47,459 nt of DNA from Erysipelotrichaceae bacterium (GTDB taxonomy: Bacteria; Bacillota_I; Bacilli_A; Erysipelotrichales; Erysipelotrichaceae). The DNA lies in contig JAAYWN010000012.1 of the NCBI GenBank assembly GCA_012516665.1, positions 1 to 47,459 of the forward strand, given 5' to 3'. The position numbers were made by a program, and so were the translations under genes. This document shows, piece by piece, positions 39,518 through 47,459 of this stretch (within the stretch, counting starts at the first letter, position 1; each line of letters opens with the position of its first letter). The notes under the pieces are model-generated. The model made no database searches. It saw only the letters and a list, made by a program, of their open reading frames with translations, and was not told the DNA's origin.

Positions 39518-40708
39518 TCAATAGTTCAGATTGATCACAGTGATCTCGCTCTTTGTACCGATCCGCAGAGGCGGTCCATAATAGCCAACGCCCGAAGTAA
39601 CAATGGTATCCATGCCTTGGATCATTTTTTCACCGCAGGAATTTTCATACATGAGCGAGACCAGGAGATTGCCTGGAAAGATCTGGCCATCATGCGTATG
39701 TCCGCACAAGGCAAGATCTGCACCGTATTCTGCCATTTCTTCAAAGTCCTTCGGCTCATGCTGAAGAACTACGACCGGTCTATCCGGACTGACTTGGCTC
39801 ATAACATCCTTCGTTGACTCTCTGTCTTCCGTACCATCGCCAGCCTTCTCACGGTCTTTGCGTCCAACGATCTGGATGCCATTGACGGTGGCCGTCTCAT
39901 CTTCCAGCATGGTGATATTCGCATCCTTCATGAACTGGGCCATATCTTCCGAACGGAAAGCCTGGGAAGGAGGTGTCAAAGCAAAACCGCACAGCAGCGG
40001 TTCAACGACATCATGATTGCCCCATACACCATAGACACCGTATTTTGTCTGGATCCCAGAAAGGATCTGTGCCTGCCGATCAGGATCCGTCAATCCGTCA
40101 TACGTACTGTTGAAGATATCCCCCGCCGATCAGCACAAGATCCGCATCCTGTTCATTGATCTTCTGTACCATATCTTCCAATTGTGAGATAGAACTGTTG
40201 ACACCTAAATGCAGGTCGGCAATCAGTACGATCTTCATCTTCCCATGTTCGCTGAATGCGCTCTCATCCAATGAGACGGTGTAGTTCGAAGTATAGATCG
40301 TATGCGCTGTATATGTCCCATAGACATTCATGCCAATGGAAATGACAAGGCAGACGATCAATGAGATCAGCGCATGCTTTGCACTCAGCTCTTTCTTCCG
40401 GCTGCATAGACGACAGATCTGAAAGATCAGAAGCGCTGCCATATAGATCAGAATAAAGCCAGCCAGATATTAGCGAATCCCTGCAGCTGATTCCGGAAAG
40501 CACCAGCCTGCGACCAATTGATCGCTATGACCGGAATGATCCCCATCAGTGCCAAAAAGACAGCAGACAGTACCGCCGGCCATTTCTTGGCAATGATTCG
40601 TTTCATTAAAACAACTGTCTGCCAGATTGCATATGCATTCAGCAGAACATAGAGCAGATAGATCACCCAAGCGCTCATAAATTTTCCTCGCTTCAAATAT
40701 AGGTACAT
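39518..40708 (-). pseudogene. Calcineurin-like metallophosphoesterase with N-terminal TM region, interrupted by two frameshifts
   Basis: ORFs 40448..40708, 40098..40442 and 39518..40093 together rebuild one protein: TM helices, ADLHLG, LIGGD(IFNSTYDGL)TDPDRQ, WGNHDV, LCGHTHDGQ. Outer segments share a frame and the middle is shifted. Confidence 0.85.
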
Positions 40709-44035: not shown

Positions 44036-44124
44036 AAATATATTCTACCGCAGATCATGCATTCTCATGCTCAGATTTGACGCATTTGATATAATAGTAT
44101 GGCACGAAGGAAGAAGGAAAAGAT

Positions 44125-45183
44125 ATGACAAAAGTAGACGTAATATCAGGTTTTCTTGGAGCTGGTAAGACGACTCTGATACAGAAACTGATCAAAGATG
44201 TATTTGCTGGGCAGAAGGTCGTCCTGGTAGAAAATGAATTCGGTGAGATCGGCATTGACGGAGGCTTCTTAAAAGAAGCAGGCATTGTGATCAATGAAGT
44301 CAACGGCGGATGCATCTGCTGCACACTGAAGGGAGACTTCCAGGCAGCGCTGAAGAAGGTCGTAACGGAATATCATCCAGACCGGATCGTGATCGAGCCA
44401 TCCGGTGTCGGCAAGCTCTCGGATATCTTGAAGATCGTAAAGTCGGTCGAAGGATTGGAACTGAACAGCTACAGTGCTGTTGTGGATGCGAAAAGATGCA
44501 GGATCTATCACAAGAACTTCAAAGAATTCTTTGATGATCAGATCGCTACTGCGACCTGCGTGATCCTGTCCAAGACACAGATGGCCGATGAAGCTGTGAT
44601 CCAGGAGGATCTTGATATCATTCATGAACTGAATGCCAAGGCAAGAGTCATCACCACACCTTGGGATGATCTGAACGGCACTTCGATCTTTGCGGCCATG
44701 GAAGGGTCCTCTTCTGGTTTTCCTGAAGGCTTAGGAGAATTGGAAATGGATGACGACGATGACGATGATGACGATCACGATGAACATGAACACCATCATG
44801 AACATGGCGGTGCCGAAGAACAGGTCAATGCTGGCTTAGCTGAAGGCAATCACATTCATTTGGGCGGTGAAGATGAACATGAACATCATCATCACCATCA
44901 TGAAGACGAAGTAGATGCCGATGATGTCTTTGATTCTATTGGTGTTGAAACGATCAATCAGTACAGTGAAGCAGAGATCAAAGCTGCTTTGGCTGGACTT
45001 GGTGAGAACATTGTCCGGGCCAAGGGCATTGTCCCTAGTACAGATGGTTCTTGGCTGTTCTTTGACTATGTCCCAGGCGATACCGATATCCGTCCAGGTG
45101 CACCTGCCTATACAGGTCTGATCACAGTCATTGGTGAACATGTCGACGTTGAGCAGATCAAGCAGCTCTTCAAGGTAAAGTAA
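44125..45183 (+). CDS. CobW/COG0523-family GTPase (putative metal chaperone) with His/Asp-rich region
   Basis: SGFLGAGKTTLIQKL Walker A; NEVNGGCICCTLKGDF (CxCC); DDDDDDDDDHDEHEHHHEHGG and HEHHHHHHEDE metal-binding stretches. Confidence 0.93.
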   Translation: MTKVDVISGFLGAGKTTLIQKLIKDVFAGQKVVLVENEFGEIGIDGGFLKEAGIVINEVNGGCICCTLKGDFQAALKKVVTEYHPDRIVIEPSGVGKLSDILKIVKSVEGLELNSYSAVVDAKRCRIYHKNFKEFFDDQIATATCVILSKTQMADEAVIQEDLDIIHELNAKARVITTPWDDLNGTSIFAAMEGSSSGFPEGLGELEMDDDDDDDDDHDEHEHHHEHGGAEEQVNAGLAEGNHIHLGGEDEHEHHHHHHEDEVDADDVFDSIGVETINQYSEAEIKAALAGLGENIVRAKGIVPSTDGSWLFFDYVPGDTDIRPGAPAYTGLITVIGEHVDVEQIKQLFKVK

Positions 45184-46125
45184 ATGGCATCCCCTGTCTA
45201 TGTATTTACGGGCTTTCTGGATGCCGGAAAGACAACCCTGATCAAAGATACATTGAATGATCCGCAGTTCATGGAAGGTGTTTCCAGGACACTGATCATC
45301 TGTCTTGAACAGGGTGAGGTCTCCTATAATGAAAAATGGCTGGAAGAATATCATACGAACATCGAATATATTGATGACGTATCTAGTTTGACTGCCGAGA
45401 AAATGCATGAACTGGATACGATCTATCATCCTTCGCAGGTCTTCATTGAATGGAACGGAACGGTAGCTCTGCCTGATCTGATCCTGAATCAGATGCCTGA
45501 TTTCTGGCCTCTGGTGCAGATCCTGACACCGGTAGATGCAGAGACCTTCTCAAGCTTCATGGGCCCTCTGCGCCAGATGATGTATGAACAGATCCGCTAC
45601 TCCGATACGGTCATATGCAACCGCTGCACCGCGGATACTTCCGGCTCCATGCTGCGGGGAAATATCAAAGCGATCAACCGCCGGGCCCAGATCTACTATG
45701 AAGGAAGCTTCGGCGAACCGGTAGAACTGAAAGACGGAGGTCTGCCGTTTGACATCAGCGCAGATGTCATCGACATCAAGGATGATGACTACGGTCTCTG
45801 GTATATGGATGCCGTTGAAGATCCAAAGAAATATGATGGCAAAGAGATCATTCTGCGCGGATACTATGCAGATGATATTCCCGGATATAAACAGACGTTC
45901 ATTATGGGACGCCAGGCCATGGTATGCTGTGCCAATGACACTTCTCTCTGCGGGATCACGGTGACCAACGTCAAGATCTGGGAAATGAAAAAAGGCGATT
46001 GGCTGGAAGTCCAAGGCAAATTAAAGGCCATCCCGATGGAGAATGGCGGCGAGACCGTTGTCCTGTATGCATCAAAAGTTGCGCGGTACCAGAAACCGGC
46101 AGAAGAATTCGTTACTTTCTCATAA
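45184..46125 (+). CDS. COG0523-like GTPase lacking CxCC, with DUF1980/TIGR03943-like C-terminal domain
   Basis: TGFLDAGKTTLIKDTL Walker A; no GCxCC; C-terminus DPKKYDGKEIILRGYYADD...FIMGRQAMVCCANDTSLCGITV...WLEVQGKL resembles the DUF1980 C-domain. Confidence 0.8.
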   Translation: MASPVYVFTGFLDAGKTTLIKDTLNDPQFMEGVSRTLIICLEQGEVSYNEKWLEEYHTNIEYIDDVSSLTAEKMHELDTIYHPSQVFIEWNGTVALPDLILNQMPDFWPLVQILTPVDAETFSSFMGPLRQMMYEQIRYSDTVICNRCTADTSGSMLRGNIKAINRRAQIYYEGSFGEPVELKDGGLPFDISADVIDIKDDDYGLWYMDAVEDPKKYDGKEIILRGYYADDIPGYKQTFIMGRQAMVCCANDTSLCGITVTNVKIWEMKKGDWLEVQGKLKAIPMENGGETVVLYASKVARYQKPAEEFVTFS

Positions 46126-46260: not shown

Positions 46261-46314
46261 ATGGACGGCAGTTCATAAAAGCGCTATTATAAAGAAGAAA
46301 TGGAGGGTCCTGAA

Positions 46315-47459
46315 ATGGAATATAAAAGCAGAATAGCCGACACGATTCTTCTCGATAAACTGGAAGAAAAGGGAGCTGTTGTGATTGAAGGACCAAAATG
46401 GTGCGGTAAAACAACGACAGCGATGCAGGCTGCCCACAGTATTCTCCGAATGGATGAGCCAAGCAGGCGGGATGAAAATATCATGATGTCTGAGCTTGAC
46501 CCAGAAAAGCTGCTGGAAGGAGATACTCCGCTGCTGATCGATGAATGGCAGATTGCGCCAAAGATCTGGGACTCTGTCAGATATCAAGTTGACATGAGAA
46601 ATAAAGAGGGCCAATTCATTTTAACTGGATCCTCTGTACCCATTGACTCAAAAGAAATTACGCATTCAGGAACAGGGCGATTTACATGGCTGAAAATGCG
46701 TCCTATGTCATTATACGAATCTAAGGAATCCACAGGTGAGGTCAGTCTCGAAGATTTATTTTTGTCTCCAGAGAAAATAAGCGGAAAGAATCCCTTTGAT
46801 ATTGACCGTCTTGCATTTGCCATCTGCCGAGGCGGATGGCCGCATGCTGTCGGGATGAAAGAAAAGTCTGCTCTTGCACAGGCATTTGATTATTACGATG
46901 CTGTTGTTCGCTCAGATATCAATCGAGCAGATGGAATCAATAAAAACCCAGAAAGAGTAAAACTTCTCATGCGATCATATGCAAGAAATCTGGGAACTTC
47001 CGTTTCTAATTCATTGCTACGAAGCGATATGATCAGCAATGACGCAGAAACATTAAGTGTGGATACTGTCATTTCATATGTGAATGCCTAAAAAAATATA
47101 TTCGTTGTCGAGGATATGCCCGCATGGAACCCGAATCTTCTTTCTAAGACGGCCATCAGAATATCTGATGCACGATATTATATTGACCCGTCGATTGGAA
47201 CGGCAGCACTAGGTATTTCCCCTCAGGATCTGAAAAGCGATCTGAATACTTTTGGATTTCTTTTTAAGACATTATATGTCCGTGATCTTCGCGTATATAC
47301 AGAATATCTGAATGGGGAAGTACTGCACTTTCGCGATCAGACAGGACTGGAATGCGATACGGTCATTCATCTTAGAAATGGCTCTTACGGTCTTGCAGAG
47401 ATCAAGCTTGGAGGTGAAAGGCTCATCGAAGAAGGTGCAGCCAATCTAAAAAAGCTGGC
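46315..47459 (+). pseudogene. AAA-type ATPase with DUF4143 C-terminal domain, interrupted by an in-frame TAA at 47089-47091 and running off the window
   Basis: GPKWCGKTTTAMQAAHS Walker A; LLIDEWQIAPKIWDSVRYQVD; ILTGSS; after the stop the same frame continues KNIFVVEDMPAWNPNLLSKTAIRISDARYYIDPSIGTAALG...ECDTVIHLRNGSYGLAEIKLGG. Confidence 0.88.

Follow-up and report, generated by a model that had tools for sequence, protein, structure and literature searches.

A GTPase without CxCC, fused to a DUF1980_C domain, is paired with a canonical COG0523 GTPase in Erysipelotrichaceae and their relatives: a possible soluble metal-delivery unit

Organization of the locus

The window analyzed here (the whole stretch of 47,459 nucleotides, contig JAAYWN010000012.1 of assembly GCA_012516665.1, from an Erysipelotrichaceae bacterium) contains two adjacent genes on the forward strand that both encode predicted GTPases. 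Gene A (44125..45183) encodes a 352 aa protein identified as a canonical COG0523 GTPase by PF02492, a weak match to CobW_C (PF07683) and profile A4. Gene B (45184..46125) encodes a 313 aa protein which, according to domain profiles, is a fusion of a CxCC-less GTPase with a DUF1980_C domain and has no membrane helix. The earlier note on this DNA stated that B begins straight after the stop of the first gene, and this is the case: the two genes are in one frame, and the ATG start codon of B at 45184 immediately follows the TAA stop of A (45181–45183), so that the junction occupies 45181..45186 on the forward strand.

Such tight junctions are common among relatives. In a collection of 130 A–B junctions (107 distinct B proteins; A was required to contain GCxCC), the commonest form, seen in 48, is a TAATG overlap, and in most of the others the genes are 0–4 nt apart. 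Furthermore, where presence of the motif was not a selection criterion, a GCxCC-containing A is located directly upstream of B wherever the contig reaches far enough. Judging from these overlaps and short spacers, A and B are probably translationally coupled.

A TATAAT sequence upstream of A (44090..44095, forward strand) is a -10-like element and the probable promoter of the pair; a similar box also precedes A in relatives. The same region contains no operator palindrome that we could find, and none is common to the relatives; a Fur/Zur-type operator was therefore rejected for this region, where only the -10-like box stands out. Together, the recurrent box and the lack of a common palindrome fit constitutive expression of the pair.

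Two other places in the window contain apparently interrupted genes. An open reading frame for an AAA_14-type ATPase at 46300–47457 (forward strand) stops at 47089–47091 and resumes in the same frame from 47116; either an in-frame stop or an assembly error appears to have divided this gene. On the reverse strand, at 39518–40442, two adjacent open reading frames appear to be the two parts of a single gene for a membrane metallophosphoesterase, with a possible frameshift.

The GTPase domains of A and B

Protein A displays the membership features of COG0523, namely the cobW domain (PF02492, E = 1.4e-38), the GCxCC motif and CobW_C (PF07683, E = 6e-5), the latter with a score of 23.2 bits that barely exceeds the cut-off of 22. 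The metal motif, GCICC (residues 62–66; 44308..44322, forward strand), is invariant in alignment A4. The translation also contains an Asp/His-rich loop (44746..44910, forward strand) that is predicted to be disordered (pLDDT <50 at residues 212–260). At the guanine-specificity position, A has SKTQ, which, as in B, is not the N/T-K-x-D motif.

The N-terminal half of B (residues 4–170; 45193..45693, forward strand) is a cobW/G3E-type P-loop domain, with an E-value of 3.3e-11 for PF02492 (43.5 bits compared to the cut-off of 20.7). Among solved relatives, the best and only significant match by sequence is YjiA (1nij/4ixm/4ixn; residues 3–172). Conservation was assessed in alignment A1, which consists of 51 B sequences that are 37–81% identical to the window protein. 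The AF2 model of B built on A1 (pLDDT 89.8, pTM 0.72) has an N-terminal fold similar to those of HypB and UreG, and a Foldseek search against PDB matches this half to HypB, UreG and SRP GTPases. Conserved in A1 are the Walker A core, E42, G44, E89-x-N91-G92, N146-R147, D202-Y-G-x-W-Y-M and R243-x-A-M-x-C-C-x-x-D252.

As the earlier note had proposed, B keeps the Walker A motif, GFLDAGKTT (residues 10–18; 45211..45237, forward strand; G10, F11, L12, G15 and K16 are invariant), and lacks the GCxCC metal site: CxCC is absent from the window protein, and none of the 107 distinct relatives contains one in the first 190 residues. There is also no match to CobW_C (PF07683) in B at E ≤ 1, and DUF1980_C is found in its place. 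The EWNG sequence (E89-x-N91-G92; 45448..45459, forward strand), located where A carries E-P-S-G, belongs to an E-x-N-G signature common to permease-fused and free GTPases of the B type. The G4 position is occupied by N-R-C (N146-R147; 45619..45627, forward strand), with N and R invariant in A1 and C variable in more distant relatives; over the 107 distinct B proteins, neither NRC nor E-x-N-G is strictly kept in the more distant ones. Because this motif departs from N/T-K-x-D, the GTP specificity of B is only putative. A quick, unrooted tree of GTPase domains separates all CxCC-less types from all CxCC types (95% SH-aLRT), suggesting that in B the motif was likely lost rather than never present.

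The DUF1980_C domain and its CC..D motif

The C-terminal half of B was thought, in the earlier note, to resemble DUF1980, and the proposal was staked on this relationship, which is confirmed: residues 193–310 match PF21537, DUF1980_C (E = 1.3e-15; 57.8 bits, cut-off 25.9). The TIGR03943 profile matches B by its C-terminal part alone (positions 105–220) with a score of 64.9 bits, below the curated cut-off of 88.8. The N-terminal DUF1980 membrane region (PF09323) gives no match in B, which contains no hydrophobic segment. The domain (45760..46113, forward strand) is predicted to adopt a five-stranded OB-fold, given the strands in the AF2 model (residues 221–301) and the Foldseek matches of the C-terminal half to OB-folds in PDB (PriB, SSB). 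Nucleic acids and proteins are frequent ligands of OB-folds, which counts against a role in metal delivery. The two domains of B are connected by a hinge, DDDYGLWYM (residues 200–208; 45781..45807, forward strand), that is near-invariant in A1; a related D-x-x-F/Y-x-x-W lead-in is seen in some TIGR03943 proteins.

The candidate metal site of B is the motif R-x-A-M-x-C-C-x-x-D (R243 to D252; 45910..45939, forward strand), which includes C248, C249 and D252. The R....CC..D pattern is kept in all 107 distinct relatives of B and in 17 of 23 separate TIGR03943-type proteins. Of the CC...C motif described in the earlier note, the CC pair is invariant, but the third cysteine, C256, is not conserved among relatives and was rejected as a ligand. 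In some TIGR03943 proteins (L268, L270 and L273), HC replaces CC; Cys/His exchange is typical behavior of metal ligands.

An adjacent pair of cysteines is able to form a vicinal disulfide and, on this general ground, the CC pair could be redox-active, as a disulfide or persulfide switch, in which case A and B would serve oxidative damage or cofactor sulfur rather than metal. We consider such a function improbable. The Cys/His swap makes a pure disulfide role less likely, since the histidine takes the place of the first cysteine and excludes a common disulfide role in these proteins; moreover, the partner A is a CxCC-containing, His-rich metal protein, and genes for Fur and metal transporters adjoin relatives of the pair.

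Given that B is soluble, its DUF1980_C domain is expected in the cytosol, suggesting that the C-domain of YcgQ/ScfB faces this side of the membrane too. ScfA and ScfB are described as uncharacterized membrane proteins, for which 8 and 2 TM segments, respectively, are predicted (PMC5584981).

Distribution and genomic context of the pair

Full-length B is encoded in 55 of 60 genomes of close relatives; some match is detected in 57, two of which lack the full protein. In 392 genomes across the phylum, A (counted with a separate profile, threshold E ≤ 1e-55, in the same genomes as B) is present in 56, B in 57 and both in 56. In the sole B-only genome (G395), the contig ends <500 bases from B, on the side expected to contain A. 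The co-occurrence of the two GTPases anticipated in the earlier note thus holds in every genome with A (Fisher p = 1.5e-67, to be read with caution because the genomes are related). The 57 carriers belong to several families of one class, and 17 listed genomes from the family to which the window belongs contain neither gene. The full-length fusion is also found in 10 of 399 genomes of the phylum that includes the Lachnospiraceae genome G441, and a B protein 97% identical to that of the window is present in a Solobacterium sp. MAG. Far from being peculiar to a single genome, the B fusion constitutes an old and widely distributed family, and DUF1980_C is not unique to gene B.

Across about 100 A–B loci, no third gene is conserved nearby, and a wider operon was rejected. 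Neither is there a conserved zinc gene in these loci; this, like the lack of a conserved operator palindrome, counts against the metal-delivery unit, most likely for zinc, that is proposed below.

A YcgQ/YcgR-like system, which the earlier note suggested seeking in the same genome, is not present there: no DUF1980_C domain other than that of B was found in this genome. Also, no ArsP_1 permease partner of the window B was detected, so the pairing with a permease that is a feature of DUF1980/TIGR03943 proteins is lacking. The sole ArsP_1 permease gene in the genome overlaps a gene for a small thioredoxin-like CxxC protein (contig C34, L123 1118–1540 and 1477–2235) and is unrelated to the pair. 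Among the 60 relatives, an ArsP_1 permease occurs in 21, compared to 55 for B, and dependence of A–B on this permease was rejected.

Membrane relatives and origin of the modules

In distant Firmicutes, standalone TIGR03943 genes adjoin an ArsP_1 permease gene. In three genomes (G753, G813 and G792), a CxCC-less GTPase with the E-[YW]-N-G motif forms the N-terminal part of the ArsP_1 permease, which is encoded beside a GCxCC-containing COG0523 gene and TIGR03943 (fusions at L226 3277–4896, L228 6576–8150 and L282 4405–6054); Pfam-confirmed genes of the Fur family are present in the loci of G753 and G813. In two further genomes (G597 and G649), the permease–TIGR03943 loci encode a free CxCC-less GTPase of 208–214 aa with a C-terminal hydrophobic helix (L276 7966–8610 and L278 7310–7936). 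Reading of the sequences, without profile searches, identified neighboring transporter genes: CbiM-like in L226, ZnuB/ZnuC-like in L228, ZnuA-like in L276 and ZnuABC-like in L227, L280 and L281. The earlier note's assertion that DUF1980/permease systems occur near COG0523 genes is therefore accurate for other Firmicutes, where they are fused or adjacent and accompanied by Fur and metal-transporter genes.

Compared with these loci, the window pair appears to derive from a membrane metal system composed of A, B, ArsP_1 and TIGR03943 and to have become soluble, without the permease. In such a derivation, B would have acquired the DUF1980 C-domain by fusion, with loss of the permease and of the membrane part of DUF1980; the tree is unrooted, and this direction of module evolution is one that we infer. 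The same exchange of modules with permease fusions could also mean that B, like its counterpart in the membrane system, gates transport by an ArsP_1 permease to which it docks via DUF1980_C. This possibility is highly improbable, being largely refuted by the poor co-occurrence of the permease with B and by the thioredoxin-like CxxC protein that is found instead in the ArsP_1 locus of the window's own genome.

Paralogs of B beside alcohol dehydrogenases

Three genomes from two genera (G023, G033 and G952) encode a divergent paralog of B without A. In all three, the paralog follows the same zinc-type MDR alcohol dehydrogenase gene on the same strand (L229 5499–7454, reverse; L230 323–2222, forward; L303 4406–7674, forward). 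In G952, an iron-type alcohol dehydrogenase also adjoins the paralog and is encoded by the next gene in locus L303. In this small sample of three genomes, the neighborhoods agree with a role in enzyme metalation. A second B-type fusion without A, in G588 (L225 4203–6597, forward strand), adjoins an iron-type alcohol dehydrogenase gene; a terminator-like stem separates the two, and this copy of B has its own promoter-like region.

These contexts bear on the identity of the metal. The CbiM-like gene in L226 and the Fe-type alcohol dehydrogenase genes near two B paralogs are compatible with another metal, Co, Ni, Fe or Mn, and cobalt is served by some COG0523 proteins (CobW); nevertheless, such a specificity appears unlikely in view of the ZnuA/B/C-like genes in L227, L228, L276, L280 and L281, as read from sequence, and the zinc-type alcohol dehydrogenase genes located directly before the B paralog.

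The paralogs without A are also relevant to the possibility that B is a regulatory GTPase that senses nucleotide or metal via the OB-fold and switches A on or off but passes no metal. The non-canonical G4 (NRC), the altered E-x-N-G, the lack of CxCC in all B proteins and the strict 1:1 pairing and coupling with A are all compatible with this function. We nonetheless regard it as rather unlikely because CC..D is fully conserved in B and appears as CC or HC in the TIGR03943 relatives, which suggests ligand chemistry, and because the paralogs without A occur beside metal-dependent dehydrogenases.

Proposed mechanism

The interpretation that we favor, tentatively and at slightly less than an even chance, is that A and B together constitute an obligate unit of two soluble GTPases for metal delivery, most likely of zinc. 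The two-GTPase metal relay suggested in the earlier note is partly supported. The linkage between A and B is strong; the metal, the direct contact and the relay, including its direction and clients, we infer. Protein A would be the metal-loading COG0523 GTPase, binding the metal at GCICC in switch I with the help of the His-rich loop. B would be its partner GTPase, in which the CC..D site of the OB-fold would probably accept or present the metal, or else dock or position a client. The two proteins would form a hetero-complex of SIMIBI GTPases, and nucleotide turnover on A, on B or on both would time the transfer of the metal from CxCC to CC..D and, finally, to an apo-enzyme. An AF2 model of A and B joined into one chain, in which the TAA is read as Gly and the one-residue join is thus forced, has a pTM of 0.54 and does not place the two proteins confidently relative to each other. 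The proposal combines the sequence motifs, the comparative genomics of pairing and module exchange, and the published knowledge of COG0523 proteins, those studied so far being Zn- or Co-binding proteins that deliver their metal (PMC2770081, PMC7895991).

The more specific notion of a heterodimeric two-gene G3E metallochaperone, with the CxCC site contributed by one GTPase and the CC..D OB-fold by its paralog, is possible but doubtful. Each of the domains is already known; the combination and the obligate pair are not described in the searchable literature. Our search, which covered mostly literature available without subscription, found nothing that links DUF1980/YcgQ/TIGR03943 with COG0523 and nothing on an obligate pair.

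COG0523 proteins are usually viewed as single-protein metallochaperones, with mostly unknown clients. The obligate pair is spread widely among gut Firmicutes of one class and found also in Lachnospiraceae, and its CxCC-less GTPase bears a domain from DUF1980 (YcgQ, ScfB), a family of membrane proteins of unassigned function. Through the exchange of their modules, the GTPase, permease and DUF1980 families, all three poorly understood, are linked to a single process, and metal handling by the DUF1980 C-domain on the cytosolic side is suggested. If the heterodimeric arrangement is correct, it would represent a cytosolic division of labor that the searchable literature does not describe for COG0523 proteins and would hint at a metal-related role, in the cytosol, of the uncharacterized YcgQ/ScfB C-domain. 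As a simple two-gene soluble system, A–B allows a direct test.

Comparison with known systems

The COG0523/CobW GTPases (G3E, SIMIBI; YjiA, ZagA, ZigA, ZNG1, CobW) share the P-loop domain PF02492 with the N-terminal half of B. Unlike these proteins, B lacks CxCC, the presence of which in switch I is given as a feature of all COG0523 members (PMC2770081), as well as CobW_C; it has NRC at G4, E-x-N-G and a DUF1980_C end, and accompanies a CxCC-containing paralog. The TIGR03943/YcgQ/ScfB (DUF1980) proteins, which accompany the YcgR/ScfA permease (ArsP_1), have in common with B the C-domain with R....[CH]C..D and, in some cases, the lead-in to it, whereas B has neither the N-terminal DUF1980 membrane part nor a permease partner and is fused to a soluble GTPase. 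The GTPase–permease fusions of G753, G813 and G792 resemble the window pair in the CxCC-less E-[YW]-N-G GTPase, the adjacent GCxCC COG0523 gene and the DUF1980_C protein; there, in contrast, the GTPase is joined to ArsP_1, DUF1980 is a separate membrane protein, and Fur and transporter genes are neighbors. Finally, the SRP–FtsY heterodimer and the UreG and HypB dimers are SIMIBI GTPases that act as dimers, and the paralogous A–B pair may be viewed, by analogy only, as their analog.
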